This document shows positions 4,788 to 29,659 of a stretch of DNA of 33,423 bases, piece after piece. A program made the translations under genes and the position numbers. This DNA is from Candidatus Nitrosopumilus sp. (GTDB lineage: Archaea; Thermoproteota; Nitrososphaeria; Nitrososphaerales; Nitrosopumilaceae), in NCBI GenBank assembly GCA_014384555.1, contig JACNFR010000036.1:1-33423 (forward strand). The letters run 5' to 3'. The notes under the pieces are model-generated. The model did no database searches. It was not told the origin of the DNA and saw nothing but the letters and a program-made list of their open reading frames with translations. Position 1 is the first letter of the stretch. Each line of letters opens with the position of its first letter.

Positions 4788-6698
4788 GTGAGTTCTACTG
4801 ATTTCACATGGCTAATTGGAGGCCCTCAAGGCAGTGGGGTTGAATCTGGTGCCAATATTTTCTCTCGTGTATGTGCTGAAATGGGTTATCAAATTTTTGG
4901 AAAGAGAGAATTTTATTCAAACATCAAAGGTGAACACAGCTACTTTACAGTAAGAATTGCTGATAAAAAAATTCATTCAAATGTCAATGATGTAAATTTA
5001 ATGGCATCCTTTGATGCTGAAACTATTTTCCGTCATTATGATGAAGTGGTTTCTGGTGGCGGAATAATTTATGATTCAGATCTTGAGGAAACTAAAACTG
5101 ATGCAGTTCACACACTTGATGCACCGTTTAAAGAAAGACTGCACAAAGAACTAGAGTCAAAAAACAAACCGTTTACTATTGCAGGAGTTTTAGAGATTGC
5201 AAAAGAAAAAGGAGTTTTGCTATACCCTGTATCTTTCAAATCAATTCTTTTGACTTTGTCTGAAGAAACTGAAAATCCCCGTCTAAAGGGATTAATTCGA
5301 ATGTACAATGTAATTGGAGTTTCATTATCTTTGGGCATTGTCAAAATGCCTCCTGATTCTTTGCAAAAAACAATTGATAATATTTTTTCAAAAAAACCAG
5401 AAATTGCAAAAATCAATCAACAGACTGCAACATACTCTTACAATTACGCTGCAGCAAAATTTGAAAACTTTGCTCATACATTACCTGGAACAGAAAAAGA
5501 ACCTGGAACGTTACTTGTTCAGGGATTTCAAGGAACTGCATTAGGAAAGATGGTGTGTGGATGTAGATTCCAACCATACTATCCAATCACACCAGCTTCT
5601 GATGAATCAGTATACTTGGAATCAAATGAAATTTTAGAAATAACTGGTGATAGGCCTGGCTCTACTGCAGTTATTCAAACTGAAGATGAAATTTGTGCAA
5701 TTGGAATGACTATTGGTGGTGCTTTGACTGGAACGCGTTCTGCTACTTGTACGTCTGGACCTGGATTTGCATTAATGACTGAAATGCTAGGTTGGGCAGG
5801 AATGAATGAAGTCCCTGTAGTAATTACTGCATACCAGAGAAGCGGTCCATCAACTGGATTGCCAACAAGACATGGACAAGATGATTTACTATTTACAGTA
5901 TTTGCAGGACACGGTGATTTCCCAAAGATTGTTTATGCATCAGGGGAAATTGAGGAGAGCTTCTATGATACTGGTAATTGTTTTAACTATGCAGATGTTT
6001 TTCAAGTTCCAGTAATCCACATGATGGATAAATTCCATGCAAGTTCAGTTATTACTTGTAAAAGATTTGATCCTGAAAAAATTACAATTGATAGGGGTCT
6101 ATTGCTAGATAAAGTCGAGGATGGATACAGAAGATTTGAATTTACGGAAGATGGAATTTCCCCTCGTTCAAGACTTGGGATGGATAATGGAATTTTTTGG
6201 AATACTGGAGATGAATCTGATGAAACGGGTCATATCACAGAGGATCCAATTATGCGTGTAAAGATGATGGATAAGAGAATGTCTCGATTGGAATTAATTT
6301 TAGAGCGTATTCCAACTGAAGAGCAAGTGGTATCCTACGGCATTGAGGAATATACAATAATTTCTTGGGGTTCTACAATTGGTCCAGTTAAAGATGCCAT
6401 TGACATGCTAAAAAAAGAAGGAATTTCAATAGGACTGCTTCAACTAAAACTGATGCACCCATTTCCAGCAGAACATGTTTCATCTTTACTTAAAGACGCT
6501 AAAACAATAATTGATGTAGAAGCAAATCACTCTGGTCAGCTAGGAAAACTATTCAAACAAAACACTGGACGCAGTGTTGACTATTCTATCTTAAAATACT
6601 CTGGACGTGCAATGACTAGTACTGAAGTTTATGATACGCTTAAGAAAATTGTTGAAAATAAAGCAGAAAAAAGGGAGGTTTTAATGCATGGCGCTTAA
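4788..6698 (+). CDS. 2-oxoacid:ferredoxin oxidoreductase, alpha subunit (gamma-alpha fusion), GTG start
   Basis: N-terminal gamma domain (GGPQGSGVESGANIFSRVCAEMGYQIFGKREFYSNIKG) fused to alpha domain (YYPITPASDESVYLE). Confidence 0.92.
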   Translation: MSSTDFTWLIGGPQGSGVESGANIFSRVCAEMGYQIFGKREFYSNIKGEHSYFTVRIADKKIHSNVNDVNLMASFDAETIFRHYDEVVSGGGIIYDSDLEETKTDAVHTLDAPFKERLHKELESKNKPFTIAGVLEIAKEKGVLLYPVSFKSILLTLSEETENPRLKGLIRMYNVIGVSLSLGIVKMPPDSLQKTIDNIFSKKPEIAKINQQTATYSYNYAAAKFENFAHTLPGTEKEPGTLLVQGFQGTALGKMVCGCRFQPYYPITPASDESVYLESNEILEITGDRPGSTAVIQTEDEICAIGMTIGGALTGTRSATCTSGPGFALMTEMLGWAGMNEVPVVITAYQRSGPSTGLPTRHGQDDLLFTVFAGHGDFPKIVYASGEIEESFYDTGNCFNYADVFQVPVIHMMDKFHASSVITCKRFDPEKITIDRGLLLDKVEDGYRRFEFTEDGISPRSRLGMDNGIFWNTGDESDETGHITEDPIMRVKMMDKRMSRLELILERIPTEEQVVSYGIEEYTIISWGSTIGPVKDAIDMLKKEGISIGLLQLKLMHPFPAEHVSSLLKDAKTIIDVEANHSGQLGKLFKQNTGRSVDYSILKYSGRAMTSTEVYDTLKKIVENKAEKREVLMHGA

Positions 6699-7650
6699 AC
6701 CTGCTGAATTTAAAACCGAAGTTCACAATGATTGGTGTCCAGGATGTGGGGATTTTGGCATCGTTAATGCAATCCAAATGGCGTTAGCTGATATGGGTGC
6801 TCAACGAGACAAGACTGCAATATTTTCAGGAATTGGATGTTCTGGTAAGACATCTCATTACATCAATACGTATGGAGTTCACACATTGCATGGTAGAGTT
6901 TTGACATTTGCACAAGGTGCAAAGATTGCAAATCCTGAGATGACTGTGGTTGCTGTAGGTGGTGATGGTGATGGTTTAGGAATTGGCGCTGGTCATTTTG
7001 TGGCTGCTGGCAGACGAAATGTAAACATGACATACATTATTTTTGATAACGGAGTTTATGGATTAACTAAAGGTCAAGCATCTCCAACTCTAAAACTGGG
7101 AGAGAAAACAAAATCACTTCCATCTCCTAACACAAATTCAAATGTTAATCCGATTGGATTGGCAATTGCTAGTGGATTTACATTTGTTGCCCGTGGATAT
7201 TCATATGATATACGTCATCTCAAAGATTTGATAGTTCAAGCTGTAAACCATCCTGGATTGTCCTTCTTAGATGTGCTGCAACCATGTCCTACATACAATG
7301 ATCTAAACACTAGGGATTGGTACGCAGGAGCTGATTTAATGGATGAAGCACAAAAAAGACATTCAAGAATTTACAAACTAGAGGAGACTGGATATGAACC
7401 AACAGTTCATTATGATTCAGAAGTTGAAATTAATGAAAAACTAGCTCAAGCATTAATCAAATCTTTAGAGTGGGGAAACAAAATCCCAACTGGGGTATTT
7501 TATAAAAATGAAAACACTACTCCATATACTGTAAGACTACAGGATAAAATTCCAAACTATTTGGAAAACTCTCCTGCAAAACAAAATATTTCAAAAGATG
7601 GTCATTCTAATACTGATATTTCAAAGATATTGGATTCTCTCGAAGTATAG
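6688..7650 (+). CDS. 2-oxoacid:ferredoxin oxidoreductase, beta subunit
   Basis: WCPGCGDFGI, GIGCSGKTSHY, GGDGDGLGIGAGH (TPP-binding); overlaps the alpha subunit by 11 nt. Confidence 0.93.
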   Translation: MALKPAEFKTEVHNDWCPGCGDFGIVNAIQMALADMGAQRDKTAIFSGIGCSGKTSHYINTYGVHTLHGRVLTFAQGAKIANPEMTVVAVGGDGDGLGIGAGHFVAAGRRNVNMTYIIFDNGVYGLTKGQASPTLKLGEKTKSLPSPNTNSNVNPIGLAIASGFTFVARGYSYDIRHLKDLIVQAVNHPGLSFLDVLQPCPTYNDLNTRDWYAGADLMDEAQKRHSRIYKLEETGYEPTVHYDSEVEINEKLAQALIKSLEWGNKIPTGVFYKNENTTPYTVRLQDKIPNYLENSPAKQNISKDGHSNTDISKILDSLEV

Positions 7651-7687
7651 ATTACTATTTTTACTTAAGATTTCTATTTTGAAAAGA

Positions 7688-7816
7688 TTATTCTGAATAC
7701 TCTCTTTTTCTTCTGTATGCCCCACATTTAGGACACGGTTTTTTCTTCTCCCCTGCAAGAGTCATCTCTAAGGATGTCCCACAATCAAGGCAAGATTCTG
7801 TTATATTTGCTGACAT
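7688..7816 (-). CDS. 42-aa zinc-ribbon microprotein MSANITESCLDCGTSLEMTLAGEKKKPCPKCGAYRRKREYSE
   Basis: Two CxxC pairs; ATG overlaps upstream stop as TAATG; not in ORF track. Confidence 0.65.
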   Translation of the reverse strand: MSANITESCLDCGTSLEMTLAGEKKKPCPKCGAYRRKREYSE

Positions 7817-7941
7817 TATTTCTTACAACCTTCACAACTACAATCGAACATACCAGCTTTTCCCATACACTGATCATGATGTTTGTTATAGCATTTGTTA
7901 CAAACTACCATCTTAAGGTCCACTTTTGTGAGTTTTTTCAT
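7816..7941 (-). CDS. 41-aa Cys/His-rich microprotein MKKLTKVDLKMVVCNKCYNKHHDQCMGKAGMFDCSCEGCKK
   Basis: Six Cys plus two His; overlaps both neighbouring small ORFs; not in ORF track. Confidence 0.6.
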   Translation of the reverse strand: MKKLTKVDLKMVVCNKCYNKHHDQCMGKAGMFDCSCEGCKK

Positions 7942-8014
7942 GGTCTAGTACTTTTTGAAAAGTATCTGAATTTCCTTCCCAACCAAATTTACAAATTCTA
8001 CAGCTGTATTTCAT
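7913..8014 (-). CDS. 33-aa single C2H2-like zinc finger microprotein MKYSCRICKFGWEGNSDTFQKVLDHEKTHKSGP
   Basis: CX2CX16HX3H pattern; begins 1 nt after the stop of the upstream ORF; not in ORF track. Confidence 0.6.
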   Translation of the reverse strand: MKYSCRICKFGWEGNSDTFQKVLDHEKTHKSGP

Positions 8015-8015
8015 T

Positions 8016-8207
8016 TTATTTTGCTTTGTCCTTTTGATTTTTTTCAGATTCTTTGAATGCGTTTACATCCTCTGATGGTTTGGTTTTATTAGAACCAAAT
8101 TTCAGTTTTGCAATTAATTTTTTAAACATACTTTCTATGGATTCACGTTGGTATATACTGGCGTATTGTTCAAACTTTGCGCCTGATTTTATCTCTTGAT
8201 AAAGCAA
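8016..8207 (-). CDS. small Lys-rich hypothetical protein (up to 63 aa; may start at an internal Met, MFKKLIAKLKF...)
   Basis: ORF directly preceding the C2H2 microprotein with near-zero spacing. Confidence 0.5.
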   Translation of the reverse strand: MLYQEIKSGAKFEQYASIYQRESIESMFKKLIAKLKFGSNKTKPSEDVNAFKESEKNQKDKAK

Positions 8208-8306
8208 AGCAGTTTATAGCTAAAATCCCCTCTTAGAATAGAATGATTTTTTGGGATATTCAATGGCAAGATGAAAATATTTTAATTGAGATTAGCAAAT
8301 AGAGTC

Positions 8307-8489
8307 ATGGCCGGTTACATGGGAGATAAATCCAATATGGTTGTACATCATTTAGAAATGATGTCTACTGATTGTAAAATTCATGATGTGGAAAAAGCAA
8401 ATATGCATTATTTTGTCCCTGACATGCTTGATCAAGCACGAAAAGAGAACTTTGTACCATGTAAATACTGCAATGAAACTAAAACTTGA
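8307..8489 (+). CDS. small hypothetical protein (60 aa from ATG 8307; ORF opens at 8286)
   Basis: In-frame ATG; terminal CKYC and internal H/C residues. Confidence 0.55.
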   Translation: MAGYMGDKSNMVVHHLEMMSTDCKIHDVEKANMHYFVPDMLDQARKENFVPCKYCNETKT

Positions 8490-8559
8490 GAAATATTTTG
8501 AATAATCAACGCAGATAGATGATGATTTTTCCCTAAATACTAGTCCAACAGATAACAGT

Positions 8560-8709
8560 ATGAATTGTCACAAAATTAGTGAAGCCCATCTTTGGAGATA
8601 TTCCAAACATAACAAAATGCGTAGATGCTTAAAATGCAAATCTAGAATCAAAATGACTGAGCAAGAATATCATCTCAAATGGGGGATGCATAAAATTATT
8701 GCAAAATAG
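8560..8709 (+). CDS. 49-aa Cys/His microprotein MNCHKISEAHLWRYSKHNKMRRCLKCKSRIKMTEQEYHLKWGMHKIIAK
   Basis: ORF with CxH, CxxC and HxxxxxH; not in ORF track. Confidence 0.5.
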   Translation: MNCHKISEAHLWRYSKHNKMRRCLKCKSRIKMTEQEYHLKWGMHKIIAK

Positions 8710-8770
8710 TTTGTGCTAATCTAAATGGATTCTGAACGTAGAAGTTATAGGCAAGTTTTAGAATATTATT

Positions 8771-9211
8771 TTGCATTTGAATATTAATGAGGCAAATAAA
8801 ATATTTCGAAAATCCATTATCAAAGGTTTTTTTGAACCACAACTGGTGAATCTAGATTTTCAAAAATCCCCGATAAAACATCCCTCGATTAGTGATGATG
8901 GCTTGATGCAGTCTGATTTACTTCATGTATTTTTTGATGTAGAAACTGGTTCTGATTATCCTGATGGCGATGAGTGGTTTATTGTTGAATTTGTATTCCC
9001 TCACGATGTTAAACTTCCTGATTCTCTGATGGGAACTGATTATTTTACAACTTTGTCTGTTGATGAAGGCAAAACATTCTGGCATCATCGTGAACTAATT
9101 CGTTACAAATATGGAAAATCTAAAAAATTACTTGATGCATTAGATTTTCTAGAATCAAAATACAAAGAACTTCATGAATCCCTTGAACCCTTACAGAAAG
9201 ATCTTAAATGA
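8771..9211 (+). CDS. hypothetical protein (146 aa)
   Basis: ORF, no recognised family. Confidence 0.65.
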   Translation: MHLNINEANKIFRKSIIKGFFEPQLVNLDFQKSPIKHPSISDDGLMQSDLLHVFFDVETGSDYPDGDEWFIVEFVFPHDVKLPDSLMGTDYFTTLSVDEGKTFWHHRELIRYKYGKSKKLLDALDFLESKYKELHESLEPLQKDLK

Positions 9212-26823: not shown

Positions 26824-28908
26824 ATGGCAATTAATCCTTTCACATCATTTGTATTTGATTTATTCATCATTTCGGCAATTATTATCACAGCATACACTGT
26901 TAATTTCTATTATCTGGCATTTCTTTCTAGAGTAAGAAATGAAGTTCGCCCTACTGTTGATTGGGGGACGCCTACTGTAACTATACAATTACCTATTTAC
27001 AATGAAAAATATGTTGCAAAAAGACTAGTAGATTCAGTATGTCATTTGGATTATCCTAAAGACAAAATGCGAATAATGGTATGTGATGACTCTGATGATG
27101 ATACTGTTGAACTACTTCAAGATGTGGTTGATGATTATAAAAAACAAGGATTTCAAATTGAGCATGTTAGACGTGGAACAAGAAAAGGGTACAAGGCAGG
27201 TGCGTTAAAACATGCAATGAAAACAACTGATACAGAGCTTGTTGCTATTTTTGATGCTGATTTCATCCCTCCTACTTGGTTTCTTAAAAGAGCGATTCCA
27301 CATTTTTCAAAATCTGATATTGGATTGATTCAGTGTAGATGGGGGCATGTTAATGAAAATTATTCTACAATCACTCAAGTCCAGGCCCTAAGTATTGATT
27401 TTCATTTCCTTATAGAACAAAAAGCAAAAAGCAACTCTCATCTCTTCATGAATTTCAATGGTACTGCCGGAATTTGGAGACGTGAGTGTATTGAAGATGC
27501 TGGAGGATGGCACACTGCTACACTTGTTGAGGATCTTGATTTGAGTTATAGAGCACAAATGAAAGGTTGGAAATGTGTATTTTTACCTGATATTGTAGTT
27601 GATGCTGAATTACCTGCTCAAATGAATGGTGCCAAACGTCAACAATTTCGTTGGGCTAAGGGTTCTATTCAGTGTGCAATAAAATTACTTTCTGATATTG
27701 GTTTAAAACGAAATGTTGCAATAGAGGCAAAAATTCAAGCGTTCATTCAACTTACTCGTCACATTGTTTATCCTCTAGTGCTGATACAATTTTTGACTTT
27801 GCCAATCTTACTGGCTGCTGAGGTCAACCTCTATGTAGTTAGTGTTCTTCCTGCAATTACCATTGCAACATATCTTGCAATGGGGCCTGGTGCATATCTA
27901 ATTGTAATACGTGGCATGTATCACAAGTCATGGAAGTCAAAAGCAAAATTACTTCCTGCACTACTTGTCTATAATGCTGGGTTGTCTGTAAACAATACTG
28001 TTGCAGTTTTTGACGCTGTACTTGGAAAGAAAAATGAATTTCATAGAACTCCAAAATATGGTCTAGTGACAAAAAAAGATGATTGGAGAGACAAGGCATA
28101 CAATTTACCATTTACACAAACAACTCTATTGGAAATATTTTTTGGCGTTTATGGGATAATGGGAATTTTTATTTCGATATTTACAAGTAATCCTGTCTTT
28201 ATACCAATTATTGCCATTCAAACACTGGGATTTTTCTATATTTCTTACATGAGTTTGTCTCACACTCGCTTCAAAAGAAACAAATCTGTAAGTGGCAAGT
28301 CTATGACCAAGAAAGAAAAAACAGCTAATACTATTTACAAACTTGCAATGATTGGAATTGTTTCAATAATTGTTTTTGGTGGTTACATGGCAGTTTCTGG
28401 TTATAATACTGACATTTACCCTCTAGATAGAATCCGAGGAAATCTTGATGGAGTCATGTCTTCTTCTGATCCTGCCATAATTCGTGATCATTTGGTAGCA
28501 ATTCAAACTGATTTGGATTTGGTGATGGCAAATATTCCTGAAATAACTGATAAAAATGGAAACGTTATTGCCAAAAATCCTGTTTGGATATTTGGAACAG
28601 AATCTACTAACTTTCTTAGAATTCAAAATAACATAGATACAATGTTTGCCGGATTAGATGAAATATCTTCACTCTCAAAAGACAACTCTGCATATCATAC
28701 TGGAATGTTGGATATCAACGACAGGGCATTATTATTAAAAATCAACATAATGGATGCAACTCCATACATGTATGTTAGTCCTGCAAACATGATGTTCAGT
28801 GTTATCTGGATTGCAGCAATTATTGGAATCTTTGCAATGTTGAAAAGAAAGAAAGAAAATCTCCAAAAAGTTGATTTGACACATGATATTCCTTTGAAAA
28901 CAAATTAA
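26824..28908 (+). CDS. family 2 glycosyltransferase (cellulose synthase/hyaluronan synthase-like), membrane, with C-terminal 2-TM module
   Basis: QLPIYNEKYVAKRLVDSVCHLDYPKDKMRIMVCDDSDDDT, AIFDADFIPP, EDLDLSYRAQMKGW, QQFRWAKGSIQ. Confidence 0.93.
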   Translation: MAINPFTSFVFDLFIISAIIITAYTVNFYYLAFLSRVRNEVRPTVDWGTPTVTIQLPIYNEKYVAKRLVDSVCHLDYPKDKMRIMVCDDSDDDTVELLQDVVDDYKKQGFQIEHVRRGTRKGYKAGALKHAMKTTDTELVAIFDADFIPPTWFLKRAIPHFSKSDIGLIQCRWGHVNENYSTITQVQALSIDFHFLIEQKAKSNSHLFMNFNGTAGIWRRECIEDAGGWHTATLVEDLDLSYRAQMKGWKCVFLPDIVVDAELPAQMNGAKRQQFRWAKGSIQCAIKLLSDIGLKRNVAIEAKIQAFIQLTRHIVYPLVLIQFLTLPILLAAEVNLYVVSVLPAITIATYLAMGPGAYLIVIRGMYHKSWKSKAKLLPALLVYNAGLSVNNTVAVFDAVLGKKNEFHRTPKYGLVTKKDDWRDKAYNLPFTQTTLLEIFFGVYGIMGIFISIFTSNPVFIPIIAIQTLGFFYISYMSLSHTRFKRNKSVSGKSMTKKEKTANTIYKLAMIGIVSIIVFGGYMAVSGYNTDIYPLDRIRGNLDGVMSSSDPAIIRDHLVAIQTDLDLVMANIPEITDKNGNVIAKNPVWIFGTESTNFLRIQNNIDTMFAGLDEISSLSKDNSAYHTGMLDINDRALLLKINIMDATPYMYVSPANMMFSVIWIAAIIGIFAMLKRKKENLQKVDLTHDIPLKTN
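28366..28857. repeat. 492-bp perfect direct repeat, copy 1 (C-terminal module of GT2)
   Basis: Identical base for base to 29135-29626 (offset 769); near-identity extends upstream to 28337 with 4 mismatches. Confidence 0.98.
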
Positions 28909-28963: not shown

Positions 28964-29659
28964 ATGCCTGAATTTGGTACAATTGCATTGGTTGTCTTCG
29001 CTGTTGCAATAGTGGGTATCATAGCAGTTACTGCAAAATCAAGATTAACTTCAAATAATGTAACACCTGATGTTGGTGGTAAAACAACAATGTCTGGTAA
29101 TGTCTACAAACTTGCAATGATTGGAATTCTTGGGATAATTGTTTTTGGTGGTTACATGGCAGTTTCTGGTTATAATACTGACATTTACCCTCTAGATAGA
29201 ATCCGAGGAAATCTTGATGGAGTCATGTCTTCTTCTGATCCTGCCATAATTCGTGATCATTTGGTAGCAATTCAAACTGATTTGGATTTGGTGATGGCAA
29301 ATATTCCTGAAATAACTGATAAAAATGGAAACGTTATTGCCAAAAATCCTGTTTGGATATTTGGAACAGAATCTACTAACTTTCTTAGAATTCAAAATAA
29401 CATAGATACAATGTTTGCCGGATTAGATGAAATATCTTCACTCTCAAAAGACAACTCTGCATATCATACTGGAATGTTGGATATCAACGACAGGGCATTA
29501 TTATTAAAAATCAACATAATGGATGCAACTCCATACATGTATGTTAGTCCTGCAAACATGATGTTCAGTGTTATCTGGATTGCAGCAATTATTGGAATCT
29601 TTGCAATGTTGAAAAGAAAGAAAGAACAACTCCAAAAAGAAGATGAAATAGGAATTTAA
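28964..29659 (+). CDS. membrane protein: N-terminal PEFG-type TM segment plus duplicated GT2 C-terminal module
   Basis: MPEFGTIALVVFAVAIVGIIAVTAKSR followed by sequence essentially identical to the GT2 C-terminus. Confidence 0.8.
   Translation: MPEFGTIALVVFAVAIVGIIAVTAKSRLTSNNVTPDVGGKTTMSGNVYKLAMIGILGIIVFGGYMAVSGYNTDIYPLDRIRGNLDGVMSSSDPAIIRDHLVAIQTDLDLVMANIPEITDKNGNVIAKNPVWIFGTESTNFLRIQNNIDTMFAGLDEISSLSKDNSAYHTGMLDINDRALLLKINIMDATPYMYVSPANMMFSVIWIAAIIGIFAMLKRKKEQLQKEDEIGI
29135..29626. repeat. 492-bp perfect direct repeat, copy 2
   Basis: Identical to 28366-28857. Confidence 0.98.

Follow-up and report, generated by a model that had tools for sequence, protein, structure and literature searches.

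Zinc-finger microproteins are already known as a kind in archaea. Those of the haloarchaea, including the C(P)XCG proteins and Brz, are one-domain proteins of less than 70 amino acids, many of which are encoded per genome (PMC2253796, PMC6562870, PMC11241148). The small zinc-finger protein Brz regulates the transcription of the adjacent bop gene (PMC2253796), and several of the predicted archaeal zinc microproteins do not bind zinc (PMC11241148). Single C2H2-type fingers are represented by the AFV1p06 family of archaeal viruses and proviruses, whose viral member AFV1p06 binds zinc and DNA; a 2013 survey of this type of finger found no homologue in Thaumarchaeota (PMC3541406).

The locus described here lies in a stretch of 33,423 nucleotides from Candidatus Nitrosopumilus sp. 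(contig JACNFR010000036.1), hereafter called the window. Between porB (6688-7650) and a gene coding for a 146-aa protein (8771-9211), four coupled genes named B37, C2H2, C41 and R42 follow one another on the minus strand, and the features of the region are the following:

7671 to 8739, no strand: inserted segment of ~1.07 kb between porB and the 146-aa gene
7688 to 7816, minus strand: R42, a 42-aa predicted zinc ribbon with two CxxC motifs, of the C(P)xCG type, with TAATG coupling to C41
7774 to 8037, plus strand: 87-aa ORF, a spurious antisense frame with internal stops or a broken frame in most relatives
7816 to 7911, minus strand: C41, a 31-aa Cys/His protein MVVCNKCYNKHHDQCMGKAGMFDCSCEGCKK, start ATG 7911
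7913 to 8014, minus strand: C2H2, a 33-aa single zinc-finger protein, C-x2-C-x16-H-x3-H
8016 to 8129, minus strand: B37, a 37-aa basic peptide MFKKLIAKLKFGSNKTKPSEDVNAFKESEKNQKDKAK, first gene of the operon
8150 to 8164, minus strand: promoter motif ACGCCAGTATATACC, with the TATA box at 8157-8152
8160 to 8183, minus strand: imperfect inverted repeat GGCGCAAAGT...ACAATACGCC, adjoining the TATA box, a possible but weak operator
8307 to 8489, plus strand: P67, a divergent 60-aa Ada-like predicted zinc microprotein, whose ORF is listed as 67 aa from TTG 8286
8560 to 8709, plus strand: P49, a divergent 49-aa Cys/His microprotein

The genes of the minus-strand series are separated by at most 1 nt, with the junction sequences TAAaATG between B37 and C2H2, TAAgATG between C2H2 and C41, and TAATG between C41 and R42. 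The first-pass annotation had placed ORFs of up to 63, 33, 41 and 42 aa at these positions, and all four are present there; the 1-nt spacing of the first two and the TAATG coupling of the last two were likewise confirmed. Two of the starts had been set too far upstream. The 63-aa form of the first ORF, starting with TTG 8207, is unsupported, and the gene almost certainly starts with ATG 8129 and codes for 37 aa, because the relatives have stops upstream and a conserved promoter TATA box lies 28 nt before this ATG. The supposed overlap of the second and third ORFs was not borne out, as the conserved core of C41, of 31 aa, begins with ATG 7911, 1 nt past the C2H2 stop. That annotation had overlooked the divergent genes P67 and P49, the promoter common to the cassettes, the existence of several copies, the empty site and the TFB/TBP neighbourhood, but its description as a cassette of coupled microproteins stood. 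Elsewhere in the window, a 231-aa ORF (28964-29659) is a near-exact repeat of the C-terminal ~180 residues of a glycosyltransferase-like gene (26824-28908), owing either to recent tandem duplication of a part of this gene or to an artefact of the assembly.

The distribution of the minus-strand genes was determined by tblastn in 151 genomes of the family, and dN/dS ratios are medians over pairs with dS between 0.1 and 1. C41 was found in 82 of these genomes, belonging to 13 genera, with a dN/dS of 0.17, and the named organisms among the loci found through it are Nitrosopumilus, Nitrosarchaeum and other Nitrosopumilales. Its sequence HHDQCMGKAGMFDC is nearly invariant, and the Cys/His pattern proposed for the 41-aa ORF held as far as the conservation of the ligands is concerned, with the last Cys shifting by one residue (CxCxC versus CxCxxC); the AlphaFold2 model of C41 is poor (pLDDT 60.7). 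C2H2 was detected in 52 of the 151 Nitrosopumilaceae genomes (7 genera) by single-sequence tblastn. With a profile, it was found in 71 genomes among 300 of the class, exclusively in Nitrosopumilaceae and again in 7 genera. It is multicopy, with up to 7 copies per genome (G180), and 86 instances were present in the fetched loci. B37 was found in 53 of the 151 genomes and has relatives at 61 further loci, with the pattern MFKKIIxKLKFGSCK...DVNAFKESEKK. Both the paralogs and the limitation to pairs of low dS dilute the dN/dS values of C2H2 (0.49) and B37 (0.54). R42 is confined to this genus (6 of the 151 genomes, with 5 relatives in the genus; dN/dS 0.14), and the two CxxC motifs noted in the 42-aa ORF (CLDCG...CPKCG) are present, with their Cys residues conserved in the relatives.

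Based on these comparisons, the four minus-strand ORFs are conserved protein genes under purifying selection. As the frames are very short and the intergenic region is AT-rich, they might also be regarded as chance ORFs with fortuitous Cys/His patterns. However, this explanation, which we consider hardly conceivable, is ruled out by tblastn matches that extend over 7 to 13 genera, by invariant ligands, by purifying selection and by the preserved gene order and coupling, in agreement with the initial argument against chance. Interrupted frames and unconserved Cys/His residues were both looked for in the relatives, and neither check refuted the cassette of coupled microproteins. The 87-aa plus-strand ORF had rightly been suspected of being spurious, its frame being stopped or fragmented in relatives.

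The 33-aa protein is indeed a single C2H2-like finger, but of unusual spacing. In this family (A1), the residues C5, C8, W12, H25, E26 and H29 are invariant in 74 of 74 distinct cores, and all aligned members have 16 residues between the second Cys and the first His, four more than the x12 of the classical C-x2-4-C-x12-H-x3-5-H spacing. The AlphaFold2 model (pLDDT 84) predicts the same beta-beta-alpha fold (E2-4, E11-13, H16-30) as that of the classical PF00096-like fingers. The highest TM-scores among the PDB fold matches obtained with foldseek belong to C2H2 fingers, several of them DNA-bound, although these matches are weak and their E-values not significant. The C2H2 protein of the window has no Pfam match, and zf-H2C2_5 was matched weakly by 5 of 50 relatives. 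AFV1p06 is likewise a small single C2H2-type finger; it has Glu as the fourth ligand, whereas the family described here keeps His at this position, has x16 instead of the classical x12, and is chromosomal and multicopy. Two genomes (loci L131 and L158) encode proteins of 74-77 aa in which the C2H2 finger is joined with a second zinc ribbon.

P67 has four invariant residues (H14, C23, C52 and C55) in 24 distinct relatives and a median dN/dS of 0.19. It shares the His/Cys...Cys...CxxC layout of Ada_Zn_binding (PF02805), a domain matched weakly by 5 of 18 members (best E 0.00095) and by the P67 of the window with 17.5 bits, under the Pfam cut-off of 23, but it is a free-standing 60-aa protein without the Ada methyltransferase domains. 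P49 has 8 members, several of which adjoin B37-C2H2 cassettes, and a dN/dS of 0.12. R42 alone has the two-motif C(P)xCG pattern, which it shares with the haloarchaeal C(P)XCG proteins, whereas C2H2, C41, P67 and P49 show other Cys/His patterns, without a matching Pfam or NCBIfam model. None of the cassette proteins gave anything above cut-off in Pfam, NCBIfam, PADLOC or PHROGs, and the sequence search of the PDB yielded chance-level matches only. Like the haloarchaeal microproteins, the cassette proteins of 33, 31, 42 and 60 aa are shorter than 70 aa and have invariant Cys and His residues, their zinc binding being predicted; unlike them, they are encoded by cassettes of several coupled genes, which share a promoter and are shuffled as modules.

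This shuffling is apparent from the same-strand neighbour pairs in the fetched loci, where B37 is followed by C2H2 in 57 cases (mostly with gaps of -4 to +1 nt), C2H2 by C41 in 22 and C2H2 by P67 in 10. The arrangements include B37-C2H2, B37-C2H2-C41, B37-C2H2-C41-C2H2 and B37-C2H2-P67, while B37-C2H2-C41-R42 is found in the window and in G007, R42 being free-standing elsewhere. P67 or P49 is often placed divergently to the cassette, and P67 recurs downstream of the B37-C2H2 pair as well as in divergent orientation to it. Among the 69 named-organism loci, which were retrieved through C41, 35 also contain the C2H2 finger. These gene orders indicate that B37-C2H2 is a recurring pair which recombines with C41, R42, P67 and P49.

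The porB locus also provides an empty site, as 16 relatives join porB to the upstream sequence of the 146-aa gene within ~15 bp. G007 contains a shorter version of the insert at this site, without P67, and other genomes contain unrelated inserts there. By comparison with the empty site, the ~1.07 kb after porB in the window is inserted DNA; no recombinase was found within this segment. The 3' flank of porB (window 7650-7670; L005:1690-2045) is an insertion hotspot. In G043, the 250 bp inserted there contain a small basic ORF and are bordered by a 45-bp stretch that nearly duplicates the 3' end of porB; the insert of G040 (L013), ~1 kb long, comprises two Cys-rich microORFs and a reductase-like gene. 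At the G191 cassette (G191:C1:584100-588200), the same comparison revealed hypervariable flanks, mosaics of short stretches which recur in many Nitrosopumilus genomes. In two other loci (L144:1676-1790 and L141:1663-1777), the end of a tRNA gene lies ~50 bp from the end of a B37-C2H2-P67 cassette and is a possible integration site.

Since the cassette is inserted DNA and small C2H2 proteins are also encoded by archaeal viruses (the AFV1p06 family, PMC3541406), its products might be regulators which descend from a virus or plasmid and have remained in the chromosome. However, C2H2 and P67 relatives are absent from 2.9 million viral contigs, the finger was not found in phage records, and the trace of C41 amounts to one 12-residue fragment on a single viral contig. 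The conservation of C41 is also strong and vertical-like, and such an origin therefore appears very improbable.

The motif ACGCCRGTATATAYC recurs upstream of the MFKK-type B37 genes in Nitrosopumilus, and in nearly all cases its TATA box lies 28 nt ahead of the ATG. When up to one mismatch was allowed, 16 sites were found in 12 genomes, 15 of them directly before microprotein cassettes and the remaining one within an unrelated gene. Since the counts obtained with two mismatches were near those of a reversed-pattern control, the strict matches alone were used. The distance of 28 nt fixes the start of the first gene and predicts a leaderless transcript, so that the cassette mRNA is probably leaderless. 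As the motif is nearly private to the MFKK-type cassettes, it suggests a dedicated regulator, most simply one encoded by the cassette itself. The inverted repeat of the window has 7 of 10 arm bases paired and is comparable or better in only a subset of relatives; a universal palindromic operator is weakened as a candidate by the lack of the left half, GGCRYAAA, in many copies.

The MLKK-type B37 cassettes form a second class with a different promoter. A 58-nt element, CGTAGTGGTGTGAGTTTGCATATCTGAAAGGAAGGACTGAATTAACTACTCAGCTACG, often lies 60-150 nt upstream of MLKK-type B37 genes. It is present in L143, L144, L149, L158, L163 and at 30 other places (for example G123:C3:174852-174910), and its conservation is 86-100% in the majority of 32 Nitrosopumilaceae genomes, usually with one copy per genome. 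As a structured RNA it was rejected, with no Rfam match and a fold no better than that of shuffled sequences (z -0.2). At L285 (G180:C1:222738, minus strand), the same promoter as that of the MFKK-type cassettes stands before a further type of cassette, in which a small CxxC...CxxC protein comes after an MFKKL-like peptide of 18 aa.

A small coupled pair with its own conserved promoter, an inverted repeat in some copies, an intergenic insertion, a patchy distribution and several copies per genome are also reminiscent of type II toxin-antitoxin operons. In such a selfish module, B37 would be the effector, as a short basic amphipathic peptide, C2H2 would be its neutraliser and autorepressor, and the other proteins would be passengers. 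However, the cassette shows no homology to these operons and no match in PADLOC, usual toxins are far longer than either B37 or C2H2, B37 is not a hydrophobic peptide, and several loci have C2H2 without a detected B37, all of which makes this explanation unlikely.

Ammonia-oxidizing archaea are described as having only one TBP, and the life-style change of N. maritimus is accompanied by TFB paralog switching (PMC12448741). We counted 5 to 11 TFB genes per ammonia-oxidizing archaeal genome. The 20 complete or near-complete Nitrosopumilaceae genomes gave 4 to 10 TBP-domain matches each, corresponding to about 2 to 5 TBP genes instead of the single one described. TFB is the commonest recurrent large neighbour of the C2H2 cassettes (15 places in 14 genomes), and a TBP gene is nearby at 5 places. 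Of the 33 C2H2 clusters in 14 complete genomes, 11 have a TFB zinc-ribbon gene at a distance of up to 2.5 kb, versus 0.85 expected when the TFB positions were rotated round each chromosome, a value of 11 never being reached in 20,000 trials, although the effective sample is smaller because some loci are orthologous between genomes. Shared flexible islands may contribute to this association and perhaps explain it alone, and no TFB lies near the cassette of the window itself.

Because of the private promoter, the coupled translation and the TFB/TBP neighbourhood, we favour the reading of the cassette proteins as small autoregulated transcription factors or cofactors. This reading is also backed by the 57 B37-C2H2 pairs, the fold model of C2H2, the selection on every frame and the precedents of Brz and AFV1p06. 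We give a probability of roughly 0.5 to this function taken jointly with the view that the operon in the window, coding for predicted zinc-binding microproteins, is one copy of a lineage-specific and modular type that is shuffled horizontally. The operon would be transcribed leaderless from the shared TATA promoter, and the single-finger C2H2 protein, with its beta-beta-alpha fold, would bind DNA or a basal transcription factor. B37 would be its obligate small basic partner, C41, R42, P67 and P49 would serve as interchangeable accessory zinc modules, and the cassette proteins would control their own promoter as well as nearby or TFB-dependent genes.

Single C2H2 fingers alone seldom bind DNA specifically, which counts against such a regulator, as do the lack of the inverted repeat in many relatives and the different promoter of the MLKK-type cassettes. 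RNA or proteins are frequent binding partners of small zinc ribbons and fingers, and the cassette proteins could be RNA- or ribosome-associated zinc microproteins, acting in translation, RNA processing or zinc buffering and travelling with the flexible genome near TFB by chance. The best weak matches of R42, which are the ribbons of RNA polymerase subunit P and of FmdB-like proteins, are consistent with this possibility, as is the presence of U1/U11 snRNP and ribosomal proteins, none significant, in the foldseek list of C2H2. In contrast, the promoter private to the cassettes and the TFB/TBP enrichment point to transcription, and we regard an RNA- or ribosome-related role as a less probable alternative, to be kept in mind.

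No prior description of C2H2-x16, C41, P67 or P49 cassettes was found in the open-access literature. The new elements are four protein families (C41, P67, P49 and, in ammonia-oxidizing archaea, C2H2-x16), the coupled and modular cassettes in which they occur, the promoter of the cassettes and the association with TFB and TBP. Whole conserved operons can thus be hidden by short-ORF filters, and C2H2-like fingers are now added to the phylum in which the 2013 survey of AFV1p06-type fingers saw none (PMC3541406). A more speculative and rather doubtful extension of the regulator reading is that the B37-C2H2 cassettes act as promoter-selectivity modules, whose microproteins would pair with particular TFB paralogs, set promoter choice and spread as shuffled cassettes. 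Being multicopy, restricted to one family of ammonia-oxidizing archaea, provided with their own promoter and enriched beside TFB/TBP genes, the C2H2 cassettes are a concrete and testable candidate for the source of TFB specificity in these organisms.
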